A stretch of 64,000 bases of DNA from Circinella minor (taxonomy: Eukaryota; Mucoromycota; Mucoromycetes; Mucorales; Lichtheimiaceae), in NCBI GenBank assembly GCA_016758965.1, contig JAEPRB010000045.1:62001-126000 (forward strand), given 5' to 3'. The notes beneath the pieces were generated by a model. The model did no database searches. It saw only the letters and a list, made by a program, of their open reading frames with translations, and had not been told where the DNA came from. This document shows, in pieces, positions 18,311 through 55,453 of the stretch (the stretch's first letter is position 1; the number at the start of each line of letters is the position of its first letter). A program made the translations under genes and the position numbers.

Positions 18311-20143
18311 TTAATGATTATAGGGACCCAATTCTATGGGTGAAGAATATGGGGAAACATCATCATCGCGAGGTTTCTTTTGCATATAGGAAGGTGGGTT
18401 TAAAGGATTGGGTGCTTGCCATTGTCGTTCCTGCATAATCCATTGTTGTTTGGTGGACAAATCAACGCTTTTCATCGAGCCTAATCCATGATCATTCTCA
18501 TCGTAAAAAGTATTATTGGTAGTTACACCCATAGTAGATCCATTATTCGTTCGGTCAGCTGTACCGCTATTTTCGTCATTACCAGAGTTGCTGTTTCCAG
18601 TTGATTTTGATCGAAGAGCAGGATTAGAACTGAGTTTGGGACTAATAATAAATAGAACGAATAAAGTGTTATTATTTTTGAAAAAAAAAAAAAGAATTAT
18701 ATATATTTATAGTAGAACAAGAACAACAATAACAGCAATAATATGTCTTTCGTCTTTGAATATGCTGATAGATATAGAACAAATAATAAAGTAAATTAAT
18801 ACATACCCAAGAATAACAACTATTTGAGCAAAGATAATAGTAACGCCAGCCAGATTCCACCATAATGCACCCATGAAAAGACTACCAATGGTATTATTGA
18901 TGATCTGTATACGCAATGCAAAATAAAACAAACAAATCACAGCGAATCCCCAAACAGCAATGACAAAGGCAGCAACAATCATTTGAATTTTAAAAATACC
19001 GGATTGGACAGCTGCATAATGTCCGCGTCGTTTAAAATTGTTATGGTGACCTTGTAAGATACGAACGAGTCGAATACCTGCGTAAAGCACAGCTCCACCT
19101 AAACCACCACATTCAACAGTCCAAGCAGCATAATGAATATGGGCTAAAGCTCTTGCTGTACTCACGGAGCTCTCAGCCAAAACACCTGCAGAAACTGAAA
19201 AACAGGTGTTTATAAGAAAGGGTGAAAACAAAAAGATTCCACCAACAACATCAACAACTCGAGGAGACGGGAGCCATCCTGAAACATTACGACTCTAAAA
19301 GTGATAATTATAATAGTAAAAATGTCATATTAATTGGTATTAGTATAATAAATAATGATAAATCATCTCACGATATGATAATCATGAAAATATTAAAATA
19401 TAAAAGGTCAGGTAAATAGATCGCGTAATATATTTGGAAGATAGTAAAATATACCTGTGAAATTGTCTGGGCTATTCCAATTAAATAAACAGTGACACCT
19501 CCATAAGCAAAGTCCATTCCAAACTCAAAAAAAACTAAAAAAGGAAAAACAAATTAGTGAATTAAAAAATAATAAAGTCGATATAGAAAAAAGTTATTTA
19601 CATGAGCGAAAAGCATAGTTGCGAACAATATCAAATATGAGAAAAACACTTTGTAACAAATGAACTATACACAAAAATAGAATACATAAATTGTTTTTTA
19701 ATCACGTACAGAAAAAATTAACCCATATTAATTTCTTATCCTTTTTAAATGTACTTACGAATACTATGAATAGCAAAAAATAAGAGCATTGAATCCACTG
19801 GCTTGGGTCTTAAAAATGCTCCAGTGTTGGGTCCATTATTCCATAATGAATGACCTTGAATAAAAAGTCGATAGGCAAGTAATACAATACCTAAGCAACA
19901 AAAAGATAAATATTAATTAATCACAATCATAATAATATTGGTATTTTGTTAAAAAGCAAAGTGATCTCAAAGAAAAAAATTAGTTGAAATCGTTCATTTA
20001 CTCATGAGACCACCGAGACCTGCAATGGCAATGTTTATAATGCTAATGTAGTAAAGACCCTCATGTTCTTCACAATTTTGTATTTCTATACGCCAATCAC
20101 AGTGACAAATGCCGTCTGAGCATTGTCGAGCTAATGAATCCAT
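18311..20143 (-). CDS. Seven-transmembrane array protein, copy 1
   Basis: Six exons: 20143-20002, 19890-19759, 19664-19602, 19534-19455, 19294-18807 and 18641-18311, giving 411 aa. The short N terminus carries QCSDGICHCDWR followed by NCEE, the Cys signature of the array. Seven hydrophobic segments follow, then a tail of about 110 residues beginning NPALRSKSTG and ending SSPIELGPYNH. Other family landmarks are LRPKPVD before the second helix, YLIGIAQTI in the third, GWLPSPRVVDVVG before the fourth, AGIRLVRIL after the fifth and AVQSGIFKI before the sixth. There is no signal peptide, which suggests an N-out, receptor-like topology (inference). No known family is recognised. This is the first copy of a six-gene same-strand array. 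Confidence 0.82.
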
Positions 20144-22418
20144 TAGAAATTTAAAATACCAGAAAGAGCAAGGTCAAGATAGGGAGTGTATGTGTGTATA
20201 AAGACATCGCTCTGTATTGTGATCAATCAAAAAGTTTCGGTAACACCAAGTGTCTTTGTGATGCATACCAACACGTTTCAGTCCATATTTCTCCTTAAAC
20301 TCAGCAGTGGTCACCCCAAATAAAAAAAAAATTGGTTCCTAATCTTTTAATCATGATATCCAATTTTATGGATTTTTTTTTTTAATGCATGACGGATAAC
20401 CTTTTAAAAGAGCCTTTTGGATATTTTTTTTTTTTTAATTTTTTTTGAGAAGTAGGATTTGTCTTTTTTTTTTTTATTATTTCTTTGACGTAAAAAAGTG
20501 AAAATAACTATTGTATTTTCAAAATGTATTAATCAACAATAAAAACGAAATCTGTCAATATAACATCAGAAATAAATCTTGTGTACACATGATTACCTTT
20601 CTTGATATTGAATGGTATGGGTGTACAAATACATTATAGCTTGATTTTCGTCACCCATGCTAAAAAAAAAAAATCATAATTAGCGTATTATTTGCCTCAG
20701 CCAGTTAATTTATGAAATAAAAACGCTTTGATAGTAACGTAATTTACTTGTTTATAAATGAATAACCATAACAACTTCAACAAAAATAGGATCGGACTCT
20801 CGACTATTCACACTTTACTTTAAGGGGTTATAAGAAAATCTCAAAACATTTCATTTATTCTCATCAAAGTCGAAACGTTAATTGCTACATCTAAAAGTGA
20901 AGATGATATCCGGTACGTGGATAGGTTTTTTTTTTCTTCTTTTCTCGAAAGTATTTAGGGGTTAGAGAACTCAGGAGAAAATAAATCTTTGATCGCCGCA
21001 CGTACATAACGAATCGTGATAACTTACCCCTAACCCAAAACAAACAAATGTTAGCTTGTGCAAGATTATATTCACATAAAGCTAGAAGCTAACAATCGTA
21101 AGAATAGAAAGGGTTGACTCAGCCTCTCGCGTTACTTATTAAATGTTTAACCAACAAAGCATAACTAAATGATTGATTGAGAATTGGTGTTTATGTCAGT
21201 GCTTTTGGATATTTTATTATTATTTTTTGGAACTGCGCATCTTTTTTAAGAGTATATAAAATTAACTAGTAACAACTTGGTCTATGAATTACTAATAATT
21301 TTTACTTTTCTTTATATAGATAATAATTGTTAGTCCCGAAATATCTTCATAGTTATATGTATATGCACTATGTATTTTCATAATAGTAAATTAAATGTAG
21401 ACACGTTTTTTTTTTAGTTCCAGGGTATCTTTTTAATTTAATAATAATTATTTGGTGTTATATTCACTTGTTAAAGTTAATGAAAAACAACTCTGAAATG
21501 TTTACAAAAAAAAAGCCAGCATTACTCTCGCCGCAAGCGAAAATACCGTGTAACATTGAAGTGGAGTTGGGTTAAAATATGTAAAAGGAGTTTAACGCAG
21601 GGAAATGCGAGTTGTTTTTACGAAACAGTCAATTGTAGAACATAAAATCCCCTGCGATAACTAAAAACAGTTGCCTAACTATATTGACATTTGATTTTGC
21701 TATTGTAGACTCAGACGGTTATTTTTTGAGTAAAATGATAATTATTATAATACAGTGATTGTATCACATAATATTCAATAAAATAAATTTAGATCTGAAC
21801 ATTATTGTAAGACTGTTACTACTCCTTTAGATAATTATAATAACTATAATATATCATAGTTTCTTACAAAAAAAAGAAGACACGAGAAGATGATAGTTTT
21901 TTCTTTTTCCAAGTCTATACTACTTTTTTAACTTCATTAATGACAACCATCAGGTTTCAGAAAAACAGTAAATAAAGAATGATGAGAAAACTTATGGGGT
22001 TAAGTACTAAACTGATAAATAAAAGAATGGGGAGAGAAGCGAGATTAAATATTCCAAAAATAGAAATCAAATAAAATAGAACAGAGCAAGCTATCAGGTG
22101 ATACTGCAAACTTTTTTTTTCTTTTGCTATTATGCGCCATATACTGCTGATTATTTAAATTCTCATACAAGTAAAGAAACAATGAAAGATAATATATTTA
22201 TTAATTGGTTGACAGACTTATAAGATATAAAATACTAATTGATCATGTGATTGTTTGTCGCTCTTAATAACATATAGTACCGAATTTATCACGCACGTAC
22301 ACTAATAATAGCTATAATATATCAAGTTACGTATTTCTAATTAAATAGATGTTTTTGTTATACATCTAGTTGGTGTTAATAATGCTTTGGTATACTCCCT
22401 TCTTAACTAAATTTTTAA
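20144..22418. other. Intergenic spacer in the array
   Basis: About 2.3 kb of AT-rich sequence with homopolymer T runs and no reading frame of note. The left end should hold the promoter of copy 1. Confidence 0.45.
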
Positions 22419-24083
22419 TCAAATAAATAACTTGCAGAGGTCATTGGTGTTCCTGCTGTTGGTGCCTGTGTTTTCTTTGATCTCATTTAATCTTATATTG
22501 TTATCTTGTAATGTGATAGTGTCCGTACCAGAATTATCGTCGATTAGTACGTAGGTAGATGCACAAAAATCCCGAGCCCGTCGATCGCTTGTTATGTCAT
22601 GGTCATCGTTGCTATGAACGCTTTCATCGTCTAACCTACTGTTAGATAATTCTAACCCTACATTTAAATATCATATTATCAAAAATAGTATTATGGTAAA
22701 AACAAGAGCAATATATTATATACGTACAAGCGTCATATGTAATTAGTTTAGCAATTACGTGGCAAAGAAATTGATATATGTAATAACAAGAAATGTAATG
22801 TGAAGCTCTGAATGAGTGACCAACTAGTTTCACAAAATTAAACTGTTTCTCACATATTATATATAATCAAGTCTTTAGCAACACAATACAAGAGTAACGT
22901 ACCACCAAGTTCCATAAATAAATGGAAAATGAAGTATAAGCATCCCTCGTTCATTTGGTTTTATAGAGACCTGATTTACGGTTACAAGATTATCATGTTC
23001 TATGTGAATCATTTTGTTATGATTTCGCAAAAATATTAATAATACGAATGCTAGCATAAGCTAGAAAAGCAAATAATAGTGGAATCACATGAAAACATAA
23101 CCCATAGGATATGTAGATTAACGTTTTATAAGCTCTCTTGACGAGATTTTTGTTTTTACAAGTACCAACGCATAAAGCTAGAGTGTATTCAAGGGTATAG
23201 TAATATGAAAAGGATGGTACAAAGTTCGCAATATAGAGATGAGAATGTGACATTCTGAATAAACCTGCTTTGTTATACTACACTATAAAGTAGAAATAAA
23301 GAAGAAACGAACATTATTTCTATATAAATCATATTTTCAAAACTGTATACAAAATGTTTGATAACAATTAGAATGTTCGTCTTTTATTTATAAATACTTC
23401 GGTTATAAATTTTGTTATTGTACGTACATAGCCGATCAAAAGGTACATTCTGGTTCTACAAAGGCTAAAATCTCCTAGGTAGTTCAAAATAAAAAATATA
23501 TTATTATATTGTAATCATAATCAGCTTTTAATCTTTTTCTTCTCACATCATATTCAACTCGGTGGAACAAGAATTCAATTATCAGTCATCAAAATTACAC
23601 TGGGATGAGAACACTAATATAAGTTTAGTTTACGATTAAACAAATTTTTCCTTTTATTTTTTCTTCATCTTTTTATAGCTATGGTACGCTATTACTACAC
23701 ATAACGTATATTAAAAGCGCCAAAAAAAAAATATAATTCCATTGACCACATCCAGTTGTAAAATCCCTCGAATAATATTTAGATAACATTGTGATGTATT
23801 TGTTTTACAATACCAAGAATAAAAAAAGTAACAACGCTTCAGTCTTTTCACAGTGACAAAAACGTTGTTCCAAAATAATAAGCTGCATATTTGAACGCGA
23901 ATCATTAGTAAAATGATGTTTTATTACATTTTCATTCATGGAAAACAGCAATAAAAGGAAAAGTGAAATTGGAAACGTGAAACGTGAAACAGATGGTACC
24001 TGTTCATATAACATTGTTATTACAGAAATCGTTTTCACAGTGAACAGCACAATTTTAATTGACATTAACTGCGTTACACCCAT
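22419..24083 (-). CDS. Candidate GPCR-like seven-helix gene, model incomplete
   Basis: Exons supported by splice signals and phase are 24083-23814, 23766-23706 and about 23474-23424, then 23264-23046, about 22999-22894 and 22845-22731, and a tail exon 22657-22419. The join between the third and fourth helices' exons is not resolved. Visible pieces include a helix followed by RFTFPISLFLLLLFSM, then a Cys and FYNWMWSMELYFFFGAFNI. Next comes a polar loop starting RDFSLCRTR, then KRAYKTLIYI with a long helix, and a polar tail of about 80 residues with DDESVHSNDDHD. The second and third helices resemble those of cAMP-receptor or Git3-type GPCRs (inference). Sequence and intron positions differ from the six-copy array, so it is not simply a decayed copy. 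It could be a pseudogene. Confidence 0.35.
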
Positions 24084-24567
24084 TCTCTCCTGAGACCATT
24101 CTGTCCTCCACAAAAGTTATACGTATCAGCTTGAAAAAAATATTATTTGAATCTAGATACTGTACAACTGTATTTTGCTTATGCAAAACAATACAGGTGC
24201 TTGATCAATAAGGTGGTTATCTATGTAAGAAATACATACTATTATATATATTTTGCATTTTAAATTGTTTGCAAAAGAATAGCTCAGTGGACTGTAAGTT
24301 AAATGATTTCTCTTAAGCTATTATTATAATTAATAGCAAACAAAGAGCATGCTGGATCAAAATAAATCAGCAGTTGTAACAGGCTTTGAATATAGTGGTA
24401 TTTAGTTTGTGCGATATAAAAAAAGCTATTAATAGAGACTAGTTAATAAAGATGAGTTGAAAAAATCTATACATAGTATGTGTTGTAATCTAAATAAAAC
24501 GATGGTATAAATAATATGATACAAGTTCAGTATAAACAAGAAAAGTATTTGTTTTTTTTTTCTATTA
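24084..24567. other. Spacer between GPCR-like gene and array copy 2
   Basis: AT-rich, with no coding signal beyond possible 5' sequence of the GPCR-like gene and the 3' flank of copy 2. Confidence 0.4.
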
Positions 24568-26263
24568 TCAATCACTATATCTACTCAGCTCCATTTGGGA
24601 AGAGGTAGTCGATATAGGCCGTTTAGTATTCTTTCTGCCGAATCTAAAATATTTACTGCTGTTTGGTTTTTTACTCGCTGGAAGGCAATAATTTTGTTCT
24701 TGTGGATAGTTTGTTTGTAATGCATTCATAATTGCTTCGTTATCATTTTGAAATGTGGTTGATACAGCACCGAGAGTAGATATTCCAACACCCGCTTCAT
24801 GGTCCGGTCGTGTAGAATTCCCAGAGCTACTATCAATGTCAGTGCTCTCATCGGTTGACTTCTTGGATCGTAATGCAGCATTCCTGGTCGTATTGCGACT
24901 ATATAACATATATACAATAACAATACTTGTTAGTAATATTAATATATAAAAAGCCAAAAAATGATGCTTATTTTGCCCAAACATTTATAATATACCTGAA
25001 AATAATGGAGATTTGAACCACCAAAACGGTGATACCAGCTGTAAGTGACCATCCAGCACCAAGAACAATACTTCCTGTAGTATTTTCCATAATGAGATCT
25101 CGTAGAATACCATACAAGAGCAATACGAAGGAAAAAAAATATAAACATAGAGTAAAAGCAGCAATTGCTACTTGTATTTTAAATATTCCAGCCCTGACTG
25201 CATCATCAGTCGATCCTTGGCGAAGTTTTCTGTGGTGTATTCTTAAAATACGCACGAGACGAATACCAGCAAGTAGTACAGCAGTACCTATTCCTGCTGT
25301 CCATATAAACCAGATTCCATAATTTATACGTGTCAATATTTCCGCTACATGTTGATCACTGTCTATGGTGGACCCAGCTGCTATGGTAATGAATATCCCA
25401 ACTGTAGGTAGAGTTAATGCTATTATGCCTGCTACATCCACTATCCATGGTGATGGTAACCATCCTAGTGTTGAATGGCTCTATATTTTTGTTGTAAAAA
25501 TAAACATTATTATATATAAAACACGTAAATATAATGATAATTATTACTCTACCTGTGCGATTGCTTGTGAAACCCCCAGTAAATAAACTGTGATTCCACC
25601 GAGTCCTATGCTCCACGGAACTTCATATAAAACTGTAACAGTAATTAGTAATTCTAAGTCCAAGAGCACTAGTTTATAATCTATTCCAATCCAACCAGCT
25701 AATCCAATAATTATAAATACCTGAACGACCGAGTAAATTTCCTGGATCAACATCCGTGATAAGAATTAAACTTGTTATAAACCGAACTGAAAGGTAAAAA
25801 AAAAAAGAGTAAATATAACTATAAATAATCAAATGTCAGAGTTAGAATTAATTTTGTAACATACGTGCATTAAATACAGCAAATAAAACCATGCTACAAT
25901 CAACAGGTTTCGGACGTATAATCCCAGTTACTGTTCCTGCAGGGCTCCATATCCTATGTCCTTTCATTCCAACTCTATAGATCAGCAAGCCAATCCCTAT
26001 ATTAAATAATAATATTATTTTCAGCAACGCAATGAATATATTATGTTGAAGGGATTCACATTCTTTTATTAACTCGGAAAATATTTTTATTCACCTATAA
26101 TACAACCTAATGCTGAAACTATAATATTTATAACGTTGATGATGTACATTGCATGATGCTCTTCACAATTTTGAAGTGTAATTCTCCAGTCGCAGTGGCA
26201 AACCTCATCGAAGCAGTGACGATCAAATGTTCGAATAATCGTAACGGAAGAATCGTCAGCCAT
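24568..26263 (-). CDS. Seven-transmembrane array protein, copy 2
   Basis: Six exons: 26263-26095, 25996-25865, 25786-25721, 25632-25553, 25480-24996 and 24898-24568, giving 420 aa. Exon lengths match copy 1 closely: 132 nt for exon 2, 80 nt for exon 4 and 331 nt for the last. The N terminus has RTFDRHC and EVCHCDWR, then NCEE. The central landmarks KGHRIW, IRPKPVD, GWLPSPWIVDV, AGIRLVRILRIHH and VRAGIFKI are all present. The tail starts NTTRNAALRSKKSTDES, contains FQNDNEAIMNAL, and ends near SSQMELSRYSD. The FQNDNEAI and SSQMEL motifs recur in copy 4. No function is recognised; a membrane receptor or sensor is an inference. Confidence 0.83.
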
Positions 26264-27397
26264 AGTAGGCTTTTGAATAGATAATAATAACAGAAAGAGA
26301 ATAGCAGATACCAGGTAGTACTACCTAGTCATTTTGGTAATATGTTCTTCAGGTAAAGATACGTGATACGTATGACAAAATAAGGTATTGACAATAGATC
26401 ACAAGTTACATTAATAAATTCACCTGAAGATTTTTTTTTCCCCATGAAAACAAACGAGAACTTATCGTATAGTATGTATTTTTTTTTAAAATAGATTATC
26501 TATTATATACCGTTCTATAATAATGGTTAAAACGCGATGCTTGTCAAGAGTAAAAAAATAATGTTCAGTTATGAAATAAACTATTTCTTTTGTATCACAC
26601 GCGGAGATAACTTTACTTAAATGAAATTAATTTGACTTACCCATATGAAAAAAAAATGTAGGATATTTGACATCAAGATATAACAAATTAGCACTTTATA
26701 AGAAAAACGACTAAAAAGATATAAGTTGCTGAAATTTTCTTGTTATACTCATCTTTAGTAATACGATCGGTGAAGTTAAAAAAAACGAGTAGAACTCTAA
26801 TCAAAGAAGGCATATAAACTTTTTCGGTTGTGCAATTTTGAGATCAGCAGTGGAAGAAACAAGAGGTTACAATCGCAGACATCATTGTCTATCTTAATAG
26901 ATCCTACCTAGTAATGATACTAACTACAGAAACAGAATTTTCTGTATCAAATGGAAAACTAATAAATAAACTGTAGTTTATAGGTAATTGATTCAATTAA
27001 ATTTTACATCCTATTTTACTATGTATGCGTATTATAAAAACAAGAACAAACAAACAAACAAACAAACAAAAATTCTACTACAGTGGATATCTAAGTGGTT
27101 AAAAAATAATAATAAATTACGGTATACAAATAATTGAATTAGTTGTGTATATGTATATATAAAAAAGAATGCGCAACATCTATATAATAACAGCAAGAAA
27201 AAGGTGTTATAAGATGGGGTATTAAATGTAAAGATAAATTATATATATAAAAAATAGATAAAATAAATTGTTGGACCTTCTATTCATAATGTTTTTGAAA
27301 TCGACGGATATAAGCGTTGAAATAATGACTACTAAAGCAGCATTCGACTCTATATGAAGTATATATAATAACAAGGTAATTATGGATAATAACCTTA
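26264..27397. other. Spacer between array copies 2 and 3
   Basis: About 1.1 kb of AT-rich spacer. It contains a (CAAA)6 tetranucleotide repeat at about 27047-27071. No gene is seen. Confidence 0.45.
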
Positions 27398-29272
27398 TTA
27401 TTGATGATGATCGTATGAAGTCAGTTCCACCTGGGAAGAGTTATCCGATGATGTACGTGTTTTGAGTATTTTTTTACCGAAACCATTTTCTGTTAACGTA
27501 TTGTTTTTCTTCATTTCACGTCGTGCAAGCCACTCTTCGTCTTTTGCTTTGAGAGCACGTTCAATTGCTTCACTATCAAACGTTCCAGTGGCAGTAGCTG
27601 TATACGATGAAATTCCACCTAAATCAGTTCGTCCACTATAGGATAAGTTGTTGCTTTGACTTGTTTTATTATCTGATGATGATTTTGTGCGTAATGCTGC
27701 ATTTCTGGATTGATTGCCAGGACTATTTAAATATAAATTACACAAGTACGTAAATACAAAGAAAAGATTAGTAAATATGATGTATTATATATGATAAATA
27801 ATATAATAGTAAAAATCAATAATGTTTTCACTTTCTCCTATTTCTTTTTTATCTATCAACATTTGTAAATCGAATAACTGCTTTTGTTCTAATTTGAAAA
27901 AAGTAAAAATTACGTACTTAACCAGGACTGCTAATTCAACGACGAATGAAGTTGCTCCCCCCAATAATGACCATACAGCACCAAGAAAGATGGATCCCTT
28001 TGTATTTGCAATAATAGAGGTCCGTAAAACACCGTATAAAATTAAAAGTGCTGCGAAAGAAAACAAGCAAACAACATATGAAAATGCAGTCAATTGTATT
28101 TTGTAAATACCGGATTTGACTGCTTCATAATTTCTTGCTTGTTGAAACTTTTTATGGTGATTTCTTAATATACGAATTAAACGAAGTGAAGCATACAATA
28201 CAGCAACTCCAACGCCACCAGTCCAAAGAAGCCAAATTGAATAATTTGTACGAATCAATGTTTCTGCTAAATATACGTTTTTGTTTGCCATTGCGCCTGC
28301 TGCAATTGTAAATGATTCTCCAACGACTAACGGAGCAAATAGAAAAAAGATACCAAACGCGTCAATGACACTTGGATCAGGTAACCAACCCGATGCACAA
28401 TTACTCTGTTTTATTAATTAAAAAAAACCATTAGTATAGCTTTTTGTATTATCTAAATAAATGTCTCTTTTTTATATTAGCTACCTGTGCAATTGTTTGA
28501 GCAATACCAATCAAATACAAAGTGATACCACCTAGTCCAAATGACCAAGGAATTTCATAAAGAACTATTTTCATAATATTAATTATTAATTAACTTCTCT
28601 CAAGAACTACATTATGAATATATCACAATCTGTTATTATAATGATATATAAAAAAGATATTACATGATCGAGCAAGCCAATTTCCGTTGCCAACATCTGT
28701 TACTAGTACTATGCTAGTTATTGCTCGAACTAAAAAAAAAAAAAGCCATTAGAAAACATCAAGTAACCAGGAGTAATCATTATCATACATACGAGAATTG
28801 AATATTATAAATAATGATAACATGCCTATTATCAATATAAATATAACGTTAGAATACATATTCATTATGATCTTTTCTTTTTGAATTGGCTAAAGGAAAA
28901 TGTAATTCGATTTTTACCGTCCACGGGTTTCGGTCTTAATAGTCCTGTTCCGGGCCCTCCACTATTCCAAATTGTATGTCCTTTATAATAAACTCTATGA
29001 AATAACAAGGCTGATGCTGTCAAAAAGAAAAAAAAGTTTGATGTTACTAATATTGCTGATATGATTTATAGATCTAAGAAATTCATGATAATAGTTTTAT
29101 CAGATATCTACTAACCAAGAATAATGGACATTGCTGAAATGACAATATTAACAATGTTGATAATCCACATTGCATGACCCTCTACACAATCTTGTAGAGT
29201 GATTCGCCAGTCGCAATGACATACTCCGTCATAACAATGTCGATCGAATGTTCGAAGATTCGGATCGTCCAT
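27398..29272 (-). CDS. Seven-transmembrane array protein, copy 3
   Basis: Seven exons: 29272-29116, 29016-28918, 28825-28793, 28729-28664, 28564-28485, 28405-27918 and 27722-27398, giving 415 aa. The 132 nt exon 2 of the other copies is split here into 99 + 33 nt by an extra intron after PKPVD. Family landmarks are YDGVCHCDWR, YKGHTIW, LRPKPVD, YLIGIAQTIAQ, SLRLIRILRNHHKK, KSGIYKIQ and GSIFLGAVW. The tail starts SRNAALRTKSSSDN and ends near SSQVELTSYDHHQ. A pyrimidine-rich leader upstream of the ATG stays open in frame without another ATG. The function is unknown. Confidence 0.83.
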
Positions 29273-31228: not shown

Positions 31229-32973
31229 TCAACGATCGTCATTGTAAGTCATCGTTAACTCCATCTGAGAAGATTCGTCTGATGCCCGCCGTACAGGTAT
31301 TCTGTTGATATTGAAATATGATCTAAATTTTTTACTTTTGCGTGATTGTTTTCCATCATCCAAAATAATCCATGATGAACTTCTATTTTTATTATTATTG
31401 CGTTCAATAGCATTTAAAATGGCTTCGTTATCATTCTGAATTGTGACCGTCATTGCATGAATAGTAGAACCTTCAAAGCCACCATCATAGTGTTGATCTG
31501 GTACTGTGCTCGTAGCTCCTGTTCCGAATGTTCCCTCATTATTTGTTCCAGTAGATGACTTTGACTTAAGTGCTGCATTTTTATTTCTTGTTGTGGGACT
31601 AAATAATTTTTTTTAAAAAGAGATTGTTATTATGAATAATTCAGATTTTTTTTTTTTTTTGCCTTCTTCAAATATTCTACTTCACAATATATAAATATTT
31701 ACTTGACAAACACAGAAATAATAAGACCTAGAGAAGTTATTCCTCCCAAATATTGCCACAAGATACTGAGAAAAACATTAGCTACAGTATTTGACATAAT
31801 CTGATTTCTCAAAATACTATACAGCAACAAAAAAATGGCGAACCCCCAGAGACAAATGGAAGATAATCCAATCATAAGATATATCTTATAAATACCAGCT
31901 TGTACAGCTGCATAGTTTCGATTACTTCTTGACTGCTTGTGATATGCTTGTAATATACGTACAAGACGAGTACCAGTAAAGAACACGGCTGCACCTATAA
32001 CACTTGTCCAAAATGACCAAGCAATATATGTCAAACGAACAAAAACTTCAGCAAGTGGTAAATTACTTTCTGCTAGAGCACCTGCTGTAATCGGGAATGC
32101 AAGGCTGGTAATGAATGGAAAAATTACTGCTGTACTACCAATAATATCAACAATTAATGGTGGTGGCAACCATCCAGATACTGAATGACTCTATTTTATA
32201 AATAATGGATTCAAACATTAGATTAATATTGATAAAAAAAATCACTTGATTGTCGACTTGCCTGTGAGATAGTTTGCGCAATACCAATAAGGTAGATTGT
32301 TATTCCAGCAAGTCCAAAATCCCAAGGAATCTCGTATAAATCTAATCGTTGCGGTGAGTAAGTTCAGATTTTTTGGATCCATTTCTGTCCCTTTTAAGAA
32401 TAATATACAAACATACATGATCGAGCTACCCAATTGGTTGAAAGTACATCAGCTACCAAGATTACACTACTTAGCAATCGCACTGAAGTGAAAAAGAAAC
32501 GTCATGCCCTGATCAGTTTAATGCAACACATTTTAATTCAAGAGCACAATGCTTCAACTATCATGTAGAAGTGCTTTTATATCTTACATATGTTAAATAC
32601 GACAAGAAAAAGCAACAGACCCTCAATAGGTTTTGGTCTTAACCAGCCACTATGCTGGTTACCACTGGAATTCCAAAGCATATGTCCCTTAACATAAATT
32701 CTATTGAATAACAGAGACAAGCCTGACGATGACGACCTTTTTATTTTAGTTATTATTATTTGCAATTTCAAAGAAAAAATAGAAAAAAAAAATAGAAAAC
32801 AAAACTTTACCCAACAAAATTGTCAAAGCCGAAATCACAATATTCACGATGTTTATATACCACATAGAAAGACTTTCTTCACAGTCTTGAATGCTGAGAC
32901 GCCAATCACAGTGGCACACGCCATTATTACAATGACGATCCAAAGTACGAATCGTAAATGGTTCGTCTGCCAT
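31229..32973 (-). CDS. Seven-transmembrane array protein, copy 4
   Basis: Six exons: 32973-32811, 32722-32588, 32482-32417, 32341-32262, 32190-31703 and 31598-31229, giving 433 aa. The fourth intron begins GC (CAG then GCAAGT). Using the nearest GT instead breaks the frame. The N terminus reads RTLDRHC then NGVCHCDWR and DCEE. Other landmarks are KGHMLW, LRPKPIEG (Asp of the usual PKPVD replaced by Glu), YLIGIAQTISQ, GWLPPPLIVDIIG, GTRLVRILQAYHKQ and VQAGIYKI. The tail starts RNKNAALKSKSSTG, contains IQNDNEAILNAI, and ends near SSQMELTMTYNDDR. It is most similar to copy 2 in its tail. The function is unknown. Confidence 0.83.
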
Positions 32974-34700
32974 AAATTTTCGTCGCTCAACAAAGAAAAA
33001 AAGGAACAAACTCTTTTCTCCCCGAAGACGTTTAAACGTGAGTAAAGAAATAAAACGAGGTGGTACGGGCAGGTACACACCACACCACCCATCACATATT
33101 GATGAGATGATGATTTATTGGTGGTAACACAAGAGTGAAAGAGCTGAAAATAGATAGCAAAAGCAAATCGTAGTCAAATGAGGGGTTGTTGCTATTCTAT
33201 AACATTTTCATGTCAGTTTTATAATTAGATTTTTCTATTCAATGCATGATGTTCCTGTAAAAAGTTATGCATTTATTGCACTCACAAGAAGTAGCAGGTC
33301 CTTTTACGATCACTTAAAGCACCAGATATTTTTTTCTCCATATCATTTTTATTTAACCGATCGCTGAGACTTACGATGTTCTTCAAATAAATAATAGCAA
33401 TATACTCCATATAAATATTATAATAAAGACTGAACAAGTTCTTACTTTTTCTTTACACTTAGTAGGCTAATAAAGAATAACTATCATGATACTATATTAA
33501 TTAGAATTTATATGACTGATAAACAGCTTGGCGTTCCAAGTACTATCATTGTCTTCGCAAGCCAAAACTATGGTATATAATGAACTGTGTTTGATTATGT
33601 TAATACATAATTAATGTGGCTACTGTAGTTAATTTATATTTGACAGCTACTAATTAGTAATTTTTTTTCAATTCGATTGTAACGGCAAATAATAGCAACG
33701 TATAAACTTTTACATATTAAATATTGTATGTAATATGGTACCAGTTATTTTCTTTATGACAGCTATTTCTTCGGATTAGCTTCTAACCAAAAGAATGCTA
33801 TGATTAAGTAAAATCTCCCGCAAAGTTTCCGACTGGGAATTTTGTTGAGAGTTTAATTTCTAAAGCTCATCCCAAAACCTAGTAGGGCACGTTCGCTTCA
33901 GTGCGATCCTGTTGTAAAAATAAAATATGGAAGACAGAGACAATTGTTTTCGTAGCGCTTTATTTCTTTTTTTTTTTTGGTAGAGAGAAGCAATAACGAA
34001 ACATAAATAGTATATACAGTATTACATTAAAATAGGCTAGTATGCTAATATACCATATAGCGAATGGAAATAGTATTCCCTAACTACTACGTACATTCGA
34101 TACCTATGATTTCTTTTAAACCTCAACAACCCGTTGCTTTTACTCGTGAATATACACCTTAAATTCCCAGCAAGGCTCACTTTGAAACATTGCTTATTAA
34201 TGACTTACGTACACTTTTTGATTTAACATGGAGATATAACACACAAATGCCCCAGTTTTTCAGTCGATTATTAGTATCAGTGATTCTTGAAAATCAGCCG
34301 ATAACTTCTTGCTGGTAATATTCTCGACTCTCGTATTGTCTTCTCCAAATTATCAACATGATTATCATGTCGATCGTTGCTAATTTTTGGAATTAACTAC
34401 TATTGGTTTTTTATTATTATTTCATTATCACGCATTTTGACTTCGTTGAATGGTAGGTTTAGAATATAGATGACCCAAAGTTAAAAACATTCTTTCTGTT
34501 AAAGTTGAGATTATTACTCATCCAAGTCAATAGTGTGAGATCGCGAACTAATAGAAAAAAAATAATATATTACCATCTTCTCAATTTACGAGACCATAAA
34601 AATAAAAAATAATCATTCAATGTATGCTTATATAAAGCGGTTCACTTTAGTTGTCCGTAAGAGTTGCGTAATAATAACCCGTCTTTTATCGGAAGGTTAA
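32974..34700. other. Spacer with possible decayed fragments
   Basis: Mostly non-coding. A short open stretch around 34170-34310 on the plus strand (reading DLRTLFDLTWRYN in part) is bounded by stops. A segment near 34430-34555 resembles 41270-41440 downstream of copy 6. Confidence 0.35.
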
Positions 34701-34774
34701 TAATGACGAACTATTGGTATGCATCAACTTAATGTATCAAACACGATAAGTTTGATAGTGACAAGAAATACTTA

Positions 34775-36127
34775 CTAAAAACGATTTCTATGTAGCGCTG
34801 CCATTCTTCTTCAAAAGGTCTAATATACTCTTGCCGTTCAGTGGAGCCACGTTAATTTTAATATCGTGCTCTTTTTTTTTTGCGAAAAAAGTAAGTGTGT
34901 GGAAATTTTCGAGTATTACTTAGGGCGGATTGATGTTTTGGATGGCCAGACTAATATTACCATTGGGACCGCACATAAGCATATCACCTAGAGCGCTATT
35001 TACCTCTGTTATAATGCTGAATAAAGCAATAAGTATCTATATCTGATACTAAAATACATTTTATACCAGTGCATGTATACGAATCACACTTTTTATTTGT
35101 ACGATACTTTATACTATAGAATTAAACATATATGCTTTATTATTCGAATGATCGCGTACAGTAACTGTATCATAGTCACATTATATTATTCATTACAGAT
35201 CAATAAGTAGCAAATATTATTTCTATTTTATATTTTTTCTGTAATATTGTATAACACTTTATACATACCGTAATTTAACACTTTTTTTTGATCTCGTAAT
35301 TACTTGGTAGAATGTATTTCAGCAGGTCTTTGACCTGCTGTACGGCATTGAGAAAACATATTAATACCCCCTCCCCACTTTTTGTACCTGAAATTAAAGT
35401 CATTAATTTTTTACAAAAATTTAAATCAAAACATATCAGTCGCTTTTGATCACTCAACACTGTAAATAATCAGTTGTTTTATTAACTACAAAAAACTATC
35501 TTATCTCTCTTCTACAAACATATTTCAAATAAATTAATAGTTTTATAAAGCCACTATATATATACTTCGTAGCTTGAAGTACCTTTCTTTGCTTATAACA
35601 TTGCAACAGACAACATTAATGCCGGTGTCGCTACCATTTAAGTTATTACACATTACTTACTACGTACCTACTACCGAACAAATCCCTAAACCACCAATTA
35701 CAATTTGGTAATGCGAGTCGTGGTAAAATAGATTTGACACTAGCATCCAAAGCGGTATCCCTATTAGGAAAACAACGATGATGAATGAATCACGATAAAG
35801 GATCATTAAGAAAGATTTTTTATTGACAGAAACCAGTCCGGGTTGTTGGACTTCCCAATGTGCATGAAAACCCAAAAGCAGCTAGTTAAAGTGCATCGCA
35901 GTTTTCTACCGAAAGCTGTAGATCGTGCTGAAAAACTAGATTCAAAATTGAAGTTTATCTGTGAATGGGAATAGAGACTGGTCATAATACTCCCGGATTC
36001 GATAGCAGAGACTATCGTAAAAAAAAACAATCGCACTTATCATTTTCAAAAAATGGACATGTAGTTTCCCATCTTTTTCCACCAGTCGTTCTATGCTTTC
36101 CAAGCATCTTATTTCGCGTAATTGCAA
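34775..36127 (-). pseudogene. Fragments of an unassigned membrane-protein gene
   Basis: Two exons join cleanly: 35881-35668 (71 codons, with HAHWEVQQPGLVSVNKKS then a long hydrophobic helix) and 35387-35278 (TKSGEGVLICFLNAVQQVK and on). Donor GTACGT and acceptor TTTCAG are in compatible phase. Further pieces at 34995-34921 and 34855-34775 (with YIRPFEEEWQRYIE) look protein-like, but stops block a continuous model. The pieces are not recognisable as array members. This could be a decaying gene or a multi-exon gene I cannot resolve. Confidence 0.25.
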
Positions 36128-38879
36128 TCATATCTCATCTTTACTTAATGTCTTTGGTGCGCATGGTTACTTCATGTCCCGATAATCTGTTAATTTATAT
36201 GTGAGACTCTTCGCAGTATGTATTATGCAAAATACTAATTTTTTTAAAGCATACATGCTTTATTCAATATGCGACTGTATAGAACCATAACTATTCTTTC
36301 TCTCTCGTAATAATTGCCGCAGGTGAATTAGAAGTTCCACAAATAACAGCTCGCCCGATTCACTGTCGACCTCCACAAGTAATAGTCACCACCTTACTAC
36401 TTTTCCAAAGCACACATCTCTATGGTGGTCGATATTGTGAAAGACGAAGCCGTGATTGAACTTGATGAAATGATCATTTCTATACATGGTTCCTTTATTT
36501 TCTTTTCTCCTTGTTTTTCTTTCATATAATTAGTCTTTTATTTCAATTTTCTTGTTCTTCTGTGGTTTTTTTTTATCGTATGGATAATGTGTGGTGGAAT
36601 AAGATAACATACAATAAATAAATAGATAAGCTAGTACGTACTACGGGAATTGGGAAGTCTTAAGTGAGGTGAATAAAAAAGAGAATCATTATTTTCTAAT
36701 TGAATTTAAGTTAATTTTTACAACTTTTCTAATTTATACCTTTACTATTATTATTATACGAATTTCATTTGTGTTGTATTAATTATCATAATATACTTGT
36801 ATCCCCGTATTCTTAAGTTTCAGACAAAACACACCTACCTTTGCTTTTCTACGTAGACCGTCGTGTCTTTTATGATCTAATAATCAAACCATTGTTCGCT
36901 TTTGGTCCAGCACCGGTTAGAACAAATATTATCAATCGTCGTAATACATGCAGTTATATGACTTCTTTTTCCATTTCTCATGCATTTATCAATAGGACTA
37001 TTACTAGTCAACGAAAACAAAGAAAAGAAAAGTTGACTTGGCGGAGAGGAGATCAAATCGAAAGGATAACATATTTTAAAGGTTTCATAAAGGTAATTTG
37101 ACTTTCTAAAAATTTATTTGTGTCTAAAGCTTCTGTTTCCTTGTTTACAAAGAGTTCGTCTTACTCTGTACCATTAAAGTTATCAGCATGGTAAAGTATA
37201 CGTCGTCATCAGATCATTGTTTTATTTTGAAAAATACCTAGTCTTGTCTTTTATGTAGTAAACATAACTTTTTTTTTTTTTTTTTTTTTTTTACATTTTA
37301 GCTTATTTTAAATGCAAATATCCGTGTTTGTATCATTATAAGTGAGGAGTTACTAGCTTTACTTTGTCATGTTAAGTAGCTTTTTCATTATTTCTCTGTG
37401 TGCTCAGAATACATTTTTTTTCCTACAGTAATCCCCACCTGTTGCAACCATCGAGGTCGTCGAGTTTTTTTTTGTTTTGTTTACTTTGACGATATAGATG
37501 GCTACACGTAGATAATGCTTCCTATAAAATGCGAGTCTAGTATAACGCTTTAGCTTTTGAACTCTTCTGTTCACAGAAAATATTTACTTTGGTACGCTGC
37601 AAAATCCATACCACCACATTGATGCTTCTAATGTCAGCTCATGTCGCCTTTGATAAGTTTTCAAATACGAAACAATGGAAATTCTTCCATAAGATTTTTT
37701 TTATGCGACGCTTGTAAAAAAGGGAGGGGCGAACTGTAGTGCTTTGCTATCATCAGATTGGGTTTCCATAAATATAGACAGCCCCCTAAAAGGGCATCGA
37801 CAGATTTAAGATACTCCGCCAAAATAGGGAGAATCTTACCGCATGAAGGCGTACTATGTATACCGCTTTTATTTTGTTATTTGGTTTACTCTATACATCA
37901 TACTATGTTCAACAACGTTATGATCTAACCATTACCGCATATGTTTCAATGTCGACCAGTGTTGAGTTTGTAAGTACAGTAATTTTTTCTCCTTTTTCTG
38001 CTTTTGAGGAAAAAAAACAAGAAGCTCATTTTTTTTGTTATAGGTACAACATCCAAAATGTTTCACATAGTTTTATAGCTGGTTCCCATACTAAAACAAA
38101 GATTAGTAAAAGTTGGTGAGGGAAAACAGGGGGTTTATGCATATTTGAACCTTATATCATATAACAGAAAAAATTATGCAACACAACGATACACAAACAC
38201 AGGTAAAGAAGAATGTAATGTTTATTGCCCTTTCCTTCACATCTGCTTTCGACAATGACCAAAAACTTAAAGCTTTATCTTTGAAAACTCTTCTTTTCTA
38301 TAAATTAAAATCTGGGGCTGGGCAAAAATAGACAGCGCGGGGATAATTATAACTAAAAATATTTTCTCAACAAATGAGTTTTGTAATTTTATTTTGTTAG
38401 ATCCAAATCCACTTTTTCGGAACAAATAAAAGATGTTGTAATACAGGATTTTTCCTAGTTTTTAGGCGGACCAATATTTATTTACGTGTCACCGTATCAC
38501 AAAAAGCACCAAGGATCTCAAGGAAAATATTTATGATACTTGGTAGATGAATTTTAATACTGAATTTAAATATGACATGTGGAAATTGTGTAACAATGGG
38601 GTATGATAGTAACAAATAAAGAAAGAAAGGAAAAGAGTTCAAATTGAATTGATATAAAAAAATGTTTATATTAAAATAAATATTATTATTATGAAATTGA
38701 TAAAATAGAGCGTATATAAAGTGTAAGATAAAGTAATAGAAGTATAAGTATATAAAGAATAAGAATAACACCAATGAATAAGAGTATATACGATGTATGT
38801 AATTTTTTTTATGTTTATCAGTTGATCAATGGAAGTACTGGTGTTGTTGAGTCTTGCGGAAAATTCATTTGTGTTATTT
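36128..38879. other. Long spacer between array copies 4 and 5
   Basis: About 2.7 kb, AT-rich, with a T run of about 24 at 37269-37292. One small frame at 37854-37975 ends in a good donor (GTAAGT) and can be joined to an acceptor at 38043, giving a peptide of about 46 aa. Support is weak. No transposase or terminal repeats were found. Confidence 0.35.
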
Positions 38880-40981
38880 TTAGTTGATCAATTCAAACTT
38901 GGAGGATCCACTCCCTCCATCCGTACCCTTCCTTTTTTTCCTATCAAAGTGATAGCTATCCATGGAAGACTGTTGTTCAACGCCCTGGTCCATCATTGCG
39001 AATTTTTGATCATAATCTGTGGAAAAAGTCCCTTTATAATAAGAATCACCAAGGTCGTTGCTACTCTCTTCCATATTGGGTGATAGCCCTGTTGTTAATG
39101 TGTTTCGTCCATTATTGATGGCGTGTTTTTGGAAAACTTGTTGATATTGCAATTGTTGTTGCTTGATATCAGTCATAATGACAGTATCTTGTAAATCACT
39201 ATCATCTGCATTTGAATACGTGGTTGTAGCTTGTCCAAAACTGTTACTATAACCTTGTGATGAAGTGTTATATGTTTTGATACGTGGATTAGTAGTATCT
39301 CCCCCACCGGTACTGGATAAGTTGGTAGTGCCCAATGCTTCATTCTTTGCCATGGTTGGGCTGTAAAAAAATAATTTTTTTTAGTTCTGTTTTCCTGCGG
39401 AGCCATAGTAATAGTTTATTACTTTTTTACCCACTAATATTTATTACACTACCCATCTCACTTTGGGGAGCCACTACTTCCATTCTATTGTGCAACAATA
39501 AGAGATTACTACTTACTTTATAATAATGGCCAGCTCTACAAACACGGTAGTCAGGGGCCCCAAAAAGGTCCAAATGACACCAAGAAAGACGGAACCGACT
39601 GTACTTGTCATGATTTGATCTCGAAGAATTCCATATAACAATAAAAACGAAGCAAATGTCATCAGACAAACAATAATGATTCCGACAATTGCTTGGATCT
39701 ATAAATATAGGTTAATAAAGTTTTTATTTCTCAGTTTTGTATAATGATCTAGAAAATGAATTTTAATATAAAAATATAGTGTACCTTGTAAATACCGGTT
39801 TTGACAGCACTGTAACGTGGTCCGGAAGATTCTTTAAACTTGGCAAGATGACTATTCAGAATCTTGACTAGTCGATAACCGGCGAAAAATACAGCCGCAC
39901 TGAGAACAGTGTTATTATAAAACCAAAAACCATATAGTAAACGAGAAAAAAATTCAGCAATCCACAGATCTTTTTCAGCATAGGCACCAGCGATCAATGA
40001 GAAAACATTATGAACGACAAATGGCCATAAGAGCATCCATGTACCCACAATATCTACAACAGCAGGAGATGGTAACCATCCACTAGATATAGACTTGTGA
40101 CTCTATTAAACCAATAAGAGGTATATCAGTTGTTTTTGAATAACAGCAAGTAATATTAAAAGTCTTTTGATACCTACTTCTGCCAATGTTTGAGCTATAC
40201 CAACCAAATACAACGTGAATGAACCAACACCAAACTGCCAAGGAATTTCAAAGATGACTATATATTGTGATATGTAACATGTATAATTATTTAATATTAA
40301 TAAAAGTTTATATATTTTATCACATGTTCGATAAAATAATCACAAAAATGGTCTGTATACGAAATATATATAGTAAAAAAATGCTTACATGATCGTGCTA
40401 TCATATTTGTTGGCGCAATGTCCGCGACAAGGATAACACTGCTAACTAGTCGTACTATTATATAAGTCGTGATAAACGCATCGACAAGGTTAGTGATAAT
40501 GAATAATGTCAATAGACCCAGATAATAATAGAGCGAATACGTTATATTACGTAATCCGTAAAGTTGGGTAGCCAACAAAAAAAAAGCTTACAGGCATTAT
40601 AAACGGTTAATAAACACATGAGTGCATCAACAGGTTTTGGTCGTAAACATCCCCTCGTCCTGTTTGAGTCCCAAAGTCGATGCCCTTTAATGAAAATACG
40701 ATGAAAAAGTAATGCAATACCTAGTTGTCGGTAACCAATGGGTTAGTTTACGCTTTTAACGTGTAAAATGTTTTACCTTTGATATTAAAAAATGGATCAG
40801 CATCATGCATATACATACCCACAGCAACAACAAGCCCAGAAAGGGCAATATTTATAATATAAACATAATACATTGCATTAGCTTCTTCACAACCGTAAAT
40901 AGTTAAGCGCCAATCACAGTGACATACACCATCATTGTTACAGTGTCGTGAAAGTGTCCTTTGGCTATTATTGCTCTCCAT
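38880..40981 (-). CDS. Seven-transmembrane array protein, copy 5
   Basis: Seven exons: 40981-40819, 40720-40592, 40454-40389, 40257-40178, 40102-39785, 39698-39517 and 39360-38880, giving 472 aa. Copies 5 and 6 have an extra intron just after KTGIYK, so the large exon of copies 1-4 is split in two. The N terminus has RTLSRHC and DGVCHCDWR, then GCEE. Other landmarks are IKGHRLW, LRPKPVDA, YLVGIAQTLAE, GWLPSPAVVDIVG, GYRLVKILNSHLAKF and GSVFLGVIW. The longer tail, about 160 residues, contains DIKQQQLQYQQVFQKH, shared with copy 6, and ends SGSSKFELIN. The function is unknown; receptor-like topology is inferred. Confidence 0.83.
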
Positions 40982-42657
40982 AAAATGTGTTTTTAAGATA
41001 AAATAGATGAAAAAAATATGATATACAATAAATAAATAATAAAAAAAAGAACGGAGAAGAAAAGAATGAAAGTTGGTTAATAAATATGGGGTTTTTTAAT
41101 GATTTCTTTCTCTTGATTAGTATAGTATGGTTTCTATTTTGGATTATGATTATCACAATTCAGTTCCAGATTTTTAGTGTAAAGAGAAGGCTACCAAATG
41201 CTTTACCTGCGTTACACACAACATTAAGAAACGTCCATTATTATCTGCTTTTTCCTAATAATCCACAGTCTCGTATTTTTGACTTGGATAAATGGTAGTT
41301 TTAATTCTGCAGCAAGAAAGTTTGCAATTTTTCGTCACCTAATAATATAAACCTATAAGGATTTCCACTTTTCTTCTGCAAACCCAAAATCATCATTCAC
41401 CAAGTCAAAAATGTGAAGCGGCGAACTATTAAGAAAGTCAATGATAATTTACACGGTATAACAATACGTTACAAACTATAACTATATCGATCGCTCTTGG
41501 CCGAAAGAAAGGGGTTTCCAATGTTTAGTGACCGCCTTACTATTCTCTATTTTTCGCTCGTACAAACTATCTTTATATCAAAACGACGTTTTGATCATTG
41601 GATGAACTATAGTAAACTATATTTTTATCTCTTTTTTAAAAGCAATCAATGGGATAGATATAGTGGTATAAATGACAAAAAACAGTTTTTTATTTAAGCA
41701 TGTGGGTTAGTTGTTTGCTCCAATGTTACACATTGTACCGGTCGAGTTTCCGCGCTTTAGTTATAGTTCTTCAGGGTCTTTTTTTCAGTCTGCTCTTTCA
41801 CCGTACTATATGCTTTGCAACTTATTGTATATGAACAGCAAAAAAAATCGTGAGATTCTATACGGGACAATTTTGTGTTGTACCATCCCATGTGCTTCAT
41901 CTATATGTCGGCATAACCAATAGCTTTTTTTAAACATACGCGGGGAACGTGCTAGGTACCTGCCTGTAAAGTATTTTGGGTCGCAAGCTTTTTTTTTATT
42001 AAAAAGTCAAAAGAAAAAAAAAAAGACTCATAATTTTCAAAATGATAAAGAGATTAATTAATTTTTTTATTACCCATACGTAATTCAGTTACACGTGTGA
42101 AAATTTCACTACGTACGTTAACAATTTGGGTTACATAATAAACATATTTTGTTTCTCTCTTCGACAATATATTTATTTTAAAATGTTTTATGCAAACCTT
42201 ATCAATTTTACAAAATAAATTAGTTATGATTTAATTAATATAATAATTGTACGTGTTATAGAACCAGTCATTTAAAACTACTAGAGTTTAAGGTGACTTT
42301 ATATGTGAAAACTAGAAATTTATCATGTTTATCGCTATTGTCATTCGAGGGAACGGAGAGGGTTATGAGGGGAATATCAACTAAAATGGTTAAAAGATAG
42401 CAATAAGAGCGAATATAATTAAAAAAGAAACTATGTGCATTAGCAATGATGAATGAGAAAGAGATGAATGGTTGTAATAATATCGAGGGAGTATGTTGTT
42501 GTGTAATTATAATATATGATACGGAATTTATCCTATGGTGACGAGAAAAAGAAAATAGATTATTTTGTCTAATAATGCAAAAAGAAAAATGTGTAGTAAC
42601 TGTTATACAAAGAAAAAAGAGAACAAAGAGAAGGAGAGAGAGCACATAAAAAATTGT
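40982..42657. other. Spacer between array copies 5 and 6
   Basis: About 1.7 kb. Short plus-strand frames at 41086-41298 and 41497-41923 show no family resemblance. The segment 41270-41440 resembles 34430-34555, as expected if spacers were duplicated with the genes. Confidence 0.4.
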
Positions 42658-44682
42658 TTATCGAGGATGAATCAAGCGGATTTGAGATGAAAGATCATCT
42701 TGAGGATCTTCAGGTCCCTTTTCAACATGAGGGGTCCAAGTAGATTTGATATCATGATGACCTGGAGCTGGAGAAAGACCCTGACTTGGAGAATTTCTAT
42801 AATAATTCAAATCATCCAACGGAATATGGAAGCCACCAGAATGACCATGGTTGTCATCGTGGACATCATTCTTGATATCGTTGACCTCTAATGTTTTATC
42901 ACTTGATAAGTCAGTTGCTGACATGTTTCCATTTAAGCCATTGGATGTGTGATGACGGTTATTATGTTTTTGGAAAACTTGTTGGTATTGTAATTGTTGT
43001 TGTTTTAAATCTTCAAATGCATGATGACTAAGTGTAGCTTGGAAACTGGTATCAAGCGCAGCGCCTGCATAGCTTGATGACTGAGTTTCCTCCGCAGTAG
43101 TTGTTTTATCACCACCACCGCTGGAGCTCTTTAAACCACCAACACCTTCGGTACCAATGCGAGGACTAGAGATATATGAATGAAAAATAAAAACATAAAA
43201 ATTAGTATTTCGCTTGTTGTAATACTTACTGTGTGAAGTATTATTATATAATTTACATACTTGAAGATAATGGCAATTTCAACACAAAGTGTGGCAGCTG
43301 ATCCAAGATAGTTCCAAATGGCACCCAAAAAGATACTACCAGGTGTATTGACCATAATTAGATCACGCAGAGCTCCATACATAAGTAAAAAAATGGCAAA
43401 CAACATCAAACAAATAACAATGATACCCATAACTGCACGAATCTAAAAGAATGTTTCATATTAATATAACGTAAATATTTATCAGTTCAGCAAATCAATA
43501 CGAGGGATATTCATTGTTACCTTGAAAATACCAGTTTTGACAGATGCATAACGTGGACCAGAAGCTTGAAACTTGGATAAGTGTTGATTCAAAATACGAA
43601 CCAGTCGTAAGCCAGCAAATAATACAGCCAAAGATAATAAGAAACAATGTAGAAACCAAAATACATATAAAACATGCACCATAGCTTCAGCTACACCCAG
43701 GTGAGTACGAGCATATGCACCACCAATAAGTGCAACAATATTATTCAAAATAAATGGTGCGAGAAAGAATGTTAATCCAACTACGTCTACTACACGAGGT
43801 GACGGAAGCCATCCAGTAGAAATTGCTTTATGACTCTATTTTTTTTGAGCCCAGTTTTTTTAAATTAATAATTAGATAAGTGAACAAACAAACAAGCAAA
43901 ACAAAAATAATAAACTTACATCAGCTAATGTTTGTGCAATGCCAATCAAATAAAGTGCGAATGCACCATAGCCAAATTGCCACGGGAACTCGAACAAAAC
44001 TATATTAAATAATAAACAATAGCGAGTCGCATATTATATTTTTAGCTTCCAATCCTCGTATGTTAAAAATAACATAATATAAAATATATAATCTGGTAAG
44101 AAGAATAAAAAACTTACATTGTCGTGAGACCATATCATCAGCAACATCAGTAATCAAAATAACACTTGTAATTAAGCGGACTATGTATGTATATTTGATC
44201 GTCAATTAATCCACCATCATAATGTATCAAAAAAAAAAAAAAAAACTTTTGAGCGGCGCAAAAAGCTGAGACAAAAAGAAGATTCTGATAAAACTTACGG
44301 CAGTTGAAGATCATTAACAAGAAAAGCATACAATCGATTGGCTTAGGACGTAAACAACCTTTTGCAGTACTAACATCAAATAACCGATGACCTTTAACAA
44401 AAATGCGATGAATCAATAGTGCAGTACCTGGATACATGTATAGTTCAGTCAGTAAATGTTTGCTGATTTCATATTAATAAGGAAAAAAAATAAATGTTTC
44501 AAAATCGTTTATTCTGTACCAATGACAACCGATAATCCCGCAATAGCAATGTTTCCAATGTTAACACCCCACATAGCACCAGATTCTTCACAATTCTGTA
44601 AAGTTAAACGCCAATCACAATGACAAGTACCATCAGCATAACAATGGTATTCTAATGTTCGTACTGATAACTCGTCTCCCAT
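42658..44682 (-). CDS. Seven-transmembrane array protein, copy 6
   Basis: Seven exons: 44682-44520, 44427-44299, 44180-44118, 43999-43920, 43835-43521, 43442-43261 and 43165-42658, giving 479 aa, the longest copy. The N terminus has RTLEYHC and DGTCHCDWR, then NCEE. Helices and landmarks follow the family order: VKGHRLF, LRPKPIDC, YLIGIAQTLAD, GWLPSPRVVDVVG, AGLRLVRILNQHLSKF, VKTGIFK and GSIFLGAIW. The tail has LKQQQLQYQQVFQKHN, as in copy 5, then a His/Asp-rich stretch (DVHDDNHGHSGG) that could bind metal; that is speculation. It is the most upstream gene of the array in transcriptional order. The function is unknown. Confidence 0.83.

Positions 44683-55362: not shown

Positions 55363-55453
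<91 letters not shown>

Follow-up and report, generated by a model that had tools for sequence, protein, structure and literature searches.

We describe a tandem array of six paralogous genes, A to F, in Circinella minor (Mucorales) that probably (we would put this at about 0.65) encode members of a Mucoromycotina-specific family of cell-surface receptors with the fold of G protein–coupled receptors (GPCRs), in part locally expanded. The array occupies 18311..44682 of the window, by which we mean the whole 64,000-nucleotide stretch analyzed (positions 62,001 to 126,000 of contig JAEPRB010000045.1, here C45), in a genome of 46.6 Mb in 619 contigs. All six genes are spliced and lie on the minus strand (Table 1).

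The gene models were spliced by hand from the DNA. Each reading frame begins with ATG and has a single stop, at its end (six of six), and intron borders are GT-AG throughout, with one GC-AG intron in C as the sole exception. Five introns are common to all six genes at an identical alignment column and phase; a sixth is common to A and B, and one is private to D. Six complete genes on one strand with common exon phases had been claimed in the initial annotation, which located them correctly. The models of E and F are independently supported, because they match the deposited C. minor proteins INT45_012864 (P0001) and INT45_012863 (P0002) at 100%. For C, the deposited model (INT45_012866, P0035; 386 amino acids) is shorter than the 433-residue model built here. 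Pairwise identity among the six proteins is 42 to 59% over the first 320 residues. Gene A is 97.7% identical to P0004 of Circinella umbellata and B is 96.2% identical to P0003 of the same species; the closest relative of D has 54.7% identity over 406 residues, and no close orthologue of D was found among the first 96 matches. The six genes are of common descent, and their array is not a product of chance, because 145 homologues were found.

Seven hydrophobic segments exceed the Kyte-Doolittle cut in five of the six proteins. In A, six do so; its helix 3 falls below the cut and is present by homology. Inner loops are more positive than the outer parts in all 69 members over 380 amino acids (of 95 aligned), which predicts an outside (N-out) N terminus and an inside C terminus. 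Seven helices and this topology are what the initial annotation had proposed, and the predicted structures also have seven helices. The residues invariant in A to F include four cysteines of the head, arranged as C...C-H-C-D-W-R...C, as well as R-P-K-P on inner loop 1 and W-L-P-x-P on inner loop 2; the cysteine pattern recurs in 83 of 107 relatives of at least 380 amino acids. The head is predicted to form a small extracellular four-cysteine beta-hairpin cap, and the tail is predicted to be disordered. Conservation is highest in helix 3 and inner loop 2 and lowest in the tail. Two deposited Cunninghamella models (P0093 and P0094) lack the first half of helix 2, directly after R-P-K-P, and the predicted structure of P0104 has a short helix 2. 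The gap in the Cunninghamella models looks like an exon skipped in annotation.

The structures predicted for E and P0104 place the seven helices in a GPCR arrangement. In four structure comparisons (Foldseek and VIA-align re-ranking), the best 50 rows listed in each were all GPCRs, at 6 to 14% sequence identity in the structural alignments of one VIA-align re-ranking. Modeling thus predicts a GPCR fold with good confidence, in keeping with the receptor-like fold anticipated for these proteins. Other seven-transmembrane folds are missing from the VIA-align list, which is no proof against them, because VIA-align re-ranks Foldseek's own top 1000 only. P2Y14, MRGPRX2, CB1, and other class A structures share both the predicted fold and the N-out topology.

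By sequence, none of the GPCR classes tested fits. Searches of Pfam, NCBIfam, and PDB sequences found no family for the array proteins, just as no family had been recognized at the outset. Pfam gave nothing above noise in A to F, nor in 95 relatives among the 25 of 40 families listed for them. Weak matches in the relatives were given no weight: UPF0182 was the commonest (7 of 95 members, best E 0.037), 7TM_GPCR_Sri appeared in 2 of 95 (best 0.013), and the lowest E, 0.0017, came from one member. No 7tm_1 match was listed in A to F at E up to 10, a range where HMMER filters drop most matches above 0.1, and none among the families listed for the relatives. Elsewhere in the genome, 7tm_1 has four weak places, none over the cut-off, and 7tm_2 has two subthreshold places, all on other contigs. 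The class C family 7tm_3 (PF00003) has no match in A to F and three places outside the array, one of them over the cut-off. STE3, Git3, and Dicty_CAR had no Pfam match in A to F, and their genome searches were empty, with controls equally silent; DUF6534 (PF20152) had no match in A to F and an empty genome search without a working control.

The literature searches listed no paper on this family. No receptor words were found in the available text of PMC10386755. A fungal GPCR census of December 2025 distinguishes 17 classes and puts DUF6534 forward as a further, new class; its main text, as available, contains no Mucor, Rhizopus, or Phycomyces, and the array proteins were not compared with its supplementary lists (PMC12842992). 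The Pth11-like GPCRs of Pezizomycotina are likewise a large lineage-specific family of fungal seven-transmembrane receptors, and some have a cysteine-rich CFEM head comparable with the cysteine head described here, but the census confines them to Pezizomycotina (PMC12842992), and the array proteins are without a Pfam match. The DUF6534 candidates are also an orphan fungal seven-transmembrane family proposed as a GPCR class, but their consensus predictions are all from Agaricomycotina (PMC12842992), and A to F show no DUF6534 match. The Remi-sans-famille receptors of choanoflagellates and other protists are orphan seven-transmembrane proteins with a GPCR-like predicted structure; the available section on them does not name fungi among their lineages (PMC12716839). 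Between their helices 6 and 7 lies a short extra helix with the motif NxLQxxMNxL (PMC12716839). Neither the helix nor the motif was found in the array family, and these receptors were set aside as its identity. We class the array family as new but of a known kind, and we assign it to no named GPCR class.

About 5.8 billion proteins were searched three times by a method that needs shared five-residue words; 7996, 7993, and 7996 candidates were scored, yielding 96, 31, and 38 matches, or 145 different proteins. Records that bear an organism come only from genera of Mucorales or Umbelopsidales; the placements of C. minor and of Umbelopsidales were looked up, and the other genera we take to belong to these orders. 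The last search was empty between E values of 4e-28 and 10, and at this sensitivity the family is thus sharply bounded; distant relatives may have escaped, because shared words are needed. As far as this search reaches and where an organism is named, the family is restricted to Mucorales and Umbelopsidales. Nearly all relatives are called hypothetical or uncharacterized or are unnamed. Deviating automatic UniRef names are "THH1/TOM1/TOM3 domain" (P0042, name incomplete) and "G-protein coupled receptors fami..." (P0057). One relative's record carries an absurd automatic protein name. The C. minor genome holds at least nine further members, so the family extends beyond the six paralogues of the array.

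The tree (125 rows, quick search, with support from the Shimodaira-Hasegawa–like approximate likelihood ratio test) leaves 23 of 122 inner branches open, and its flagged long branches include P0059 and P0070 of a fast clade. It omits P0001, P0002, and P0035 (window genes), P0096, P0021, P0023, P0024, P0029, P0060, P0071, P0077, P0080, and P0124, the fragments C139 and C180c (identical with P0011 and P0122), and P0126 to P0145, which were found later. Gene A belongs to a slowly evolving clade (eight rows, support 100) with genes of C. umbellata, Phascolomyces, Zychaea, Fennellomyces, Lichtheimia, and Dichotomocladium. Together with the Rhizopus/Mucor type, this clade makes up a 50-row set (support 86) that is drawn open, and for this reason A may or may not be a strict orthologue of the Rhizopus and Mucor genes. 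Gene B is placed with Zychaea (support 99) and, with weaker support (87), beside Fennellomyces and Lichtheimia. Genes C, D, E, and F and a copy about 19 kb past the window form one clade with long branches (12 rows, support 100), the fast clade, whose members come from Circinella, Zychaea, Phascolomyces, and Fennellomyces only. Two Cunninghamella species make up a clade of their own (25 rows, support 94); its genes number fewer than 25, because the rows come from more than one assembly. Given these placements, the array is a mixture of two genes from other lineages (A and B) and a fast, narrow expansion (C to F); it is in part a local expansion, in which slow and fast evolution are mixed. Local duplication, as initially suggested, is supported; the fast expansion takes in only C to F and the copy past the window, and A and B belong to other lineages, with orthologues in other genera. 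Judged from contigs of matching size only, A, B, and fast-clade members appear to be linked in C. umbellata, Zychaea, and Fennellomyces; in Phascolomyces, A and fast-clade members do.

Near the C-terminal end, 51 of 98 long members carry the motif S-[QKEHN]-x-x-L with L, I, V, M, or T as the next residue, compared with at most 6 in 200 shuffles; in the other 47, the strict motif is missing. This count takes 98 of 129 sequences (at least 380 amino acids), enters P0035 and gene C separately, and ignores kinship. Among the later P0126 to P0145, 3 of 13 long members have the motif. Gene F has a looser form only, S-P-I-E-L. In the fast clade, the outer helix halves have lost more conservation than the inner halves (P = 0.015 and 0.046 against two slow reference sets), and the outer loops have lost more than the inner loops (P = 0.049 and 0.102), in four one-sided, uncorrected tests on sets chosen by the analyst. 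This is the pattern expected of divergent ligands and one shared effector, although the signal is modest.

The initial annotation had suggested receptors or sensors. The GPCR-like predicted fold and the N-out topology agree with this, but the function itself, ligand sensing and G protein coupling, we infer. An extracellular ligand would bind between the outer helix halves of each receptor, and the ligand-bound receptor would change shape and activate one of 12 G-alpha subunits via the conserved inner loops. The tail motif resembles phospho-regulated sorting or docking motifs, and it may recruit a trafficking or desensitization partner. The signal sensed by gene A would be one that several genera share, and C to F with the copy past the window would have diversified for different ligands, in a chemoreceptor-like birth and death.

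Twelve G-alpha loci were found in the C. minor genome (grouped by contig from 40 matches). Mucor circinelloides has 12 G-alpha genes, described by its authors as the largest fungal heterotrimeric G protein gene set, and identification of the receptor is named there as a next step (PMC6936849). An earlier survey of Rhizopus oryzae reported a single glutamate-class receptor, and the fungal classes were represented there by nutrient sensors alone (PMC3251606). A conserved, lineage-specific family with the right predicted fold supplies named genes to test, gene A first. More tentatively, and at somewhat less than even odds, the family could be a separate Mucoromycotina GPCR class supplying many of the missing receptors for an unusually large G-alpha set, made up of old, slow A-type receptors for widely shared signals and of fast-evolving chemoreceptor arrays that expand independently in Cunninghamella and in Circinella with its allies. 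Confirmation of the family as receptors would bring another class into the fungal GPCR scheme and reveal chemoreceptor-like array evolution in moulds.

Several results weigh against receptors of this kind. The Foldseek E values are weak, none being under 0.001, and template modeling (TM) scores on the query are 0.27 to 0.47 among the rows listed. The second model, P0104, has a predicted TM-score of 0.65, and its source annotation lacks part of helix 2. A shared fold by itself shows no function. DRY, CWxP, NPxxY, and a helix 3 cysteine are class A motifs, but none of them is among the conserved columns of the array family, which include just an N-P pair where helix 7 ends. The tail motif is found in 0 of 22 long Cunninghamella-clade members, and the outer/inner contrast is modest, as the P values for the loops show.

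The missing class A motifs would also suit GPCR-shaped membrane proteins without G protein signaling, acting in scaffolding or trafficking like TOM1/TOM3 or GPR137. The conserved tail motif could then serve as a trafficking signal, THH1/TOM1/TOM3 proteins also have seven helices, and the automatic name of P0042, from Syncephalastrum, points the same way. We consider this unlikely, since PF06454 (THH1/TOM1/TOM3) was found neither in A to F, nor in P0042, nor among the families listed for the relatives, nor in the genome, where the control was weak (the sole positive control was a cyanobacterium). A cysteine head on the outside, together with lineage expansions that recur, would also fit surface receptors better than TOM1-like proteins.

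It is quite improbable that the family serves to receive trisporic acid or another sex pheromone and so represents, or corresponds to, the candidate tar genes of Rhizopus microsporus. Those candidates are seven-helix proteins reported as particular to Mucoromycotina, conserved across it and absent from higher fungi, as the array family seems to be, but they are described as class C, near GABA receptors (PMC5705715). A to F lack PF00003, and its matches in C. minor all lie outside the array, on other contigs. Peptides from nine printed tar primers and probes were not found in P0019, the only R. microsporus protein compared, and identity with the tar genes is accordingly not supported; in this comparison, only stop-free frames were read, and the coding sequence need not cover every primer. 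One four-residue primer peptide occurs in Phycomyces P0039, which is chance level. The three class C places in C. minor equal the candidate trisporic acid receptors of R. microsporus in number (PMC5705715), a suggestive parallel.

Transporters, channels, or opsin-like proteins are the least likely identity: seven helices alone do not make a receptor, but every one of the best 50 rows listed in each structure comparison (two of the four re-rank Foldseek's list) is a GPCR, and the family is not one of retinal opsins, because helix 7 has no conserved lysine in the family alignment.

The gap between E and F may hold a decayed copy, a weak and unproven candidate with a tblastn E value of 0.038 and a profile chain score reached by 1 of 300 shuffles (one of five gaps was notable). 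A search of this gap with all family proteins and the low-complexity filter on found nothing. The shuffle test is soft, because the gap between A and B also gave a low-scoring chain, which no shuffle reached.

Table 1. Locations of the array genes, their tail motifs, and related loci in C. minor (window positions unless a contig is named).
Feature	Location	Strand	Exons	Details
Gene A	44682-42658	-	44682-44520, 44427-44299, 44180-44118, 43999-43920, 43835-43521, 43442-43261, 43165-42658	479 amino acids, 7 exons
Gene B	40981-38880	-	40981-40819, 40720-40592, 40454-40389, 40257-40178, 40102-39785, 39698-39517, 39360-38880	472 amino acids, 7 exons
Gene C	32973-31229	-	32973-32811, 32722-32588, 32482-32417, 32341-32262 (GC donor), 32190-31703, 31598-31229	433 amino acids, 6 exons
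Gene D	29272-27398	-	29272-29116, 29016-28918, 28825-28793, 28729-28664, 28564-28485, 28405-27918, 27722-27398	415 amino acids, 7 exons
Gene E	26263-24568	-	26263-26095, 25996-25865, 25786-25721, 25632-25553, 25480-24996, 24898-24568	420 amino acids, 6 exons; protein used for structure prediction
Gene F	20143-18311	-	20143-20002, 19890-19759, 19664-19602, 19534-19455, 19294-18807, 18641-18311	411 amino acids, 6 exons
Tail motif, gene A	42673..42687	-		SQIRL
Tail motif, gene B	38889..38903	-		SKFEL
Tail motif, gene C	31256..31270	-		SQMEL
Tail motif, gene D	27422..27436	-		SQVEL
Tail motif, gene E	24586..24600	-		SQMEL; next residue S, hence outside the strictest form
Possible decayed copy between E and F	22730..23190	-		Pieces like helix 5 and helices 6-7; weak
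Further family member	C45, about 19 kb past window end	+		Genome search
Further family members	One each on C51, C139, C252, C67, C48; three on C180			Genome search
Class C (7tm_3) places	C135:41620-42237, C25:170817-171068, C34:145546-146423			One over cut-off
G-alpha loci	C91, C71, C173, C331, C40, C77, C88, C29, C44, C7, C284, C160

Other features of the window include three open frames or genes on the minus strand. An open frame at 48153-51782 encodes a P-type ATPase with four heavy-metal-associated domains, a single open frame of 2334 codons at 5293-12294 has no Pfam match at E 0.001, and a partial Arb1-like gene (Argonaute siRNA chaperone subunit, E 2e-51) occupies 62893-63900. At 55367-55449 lies a perfect (AC) dinucleotide repeat of 41.5 copies.
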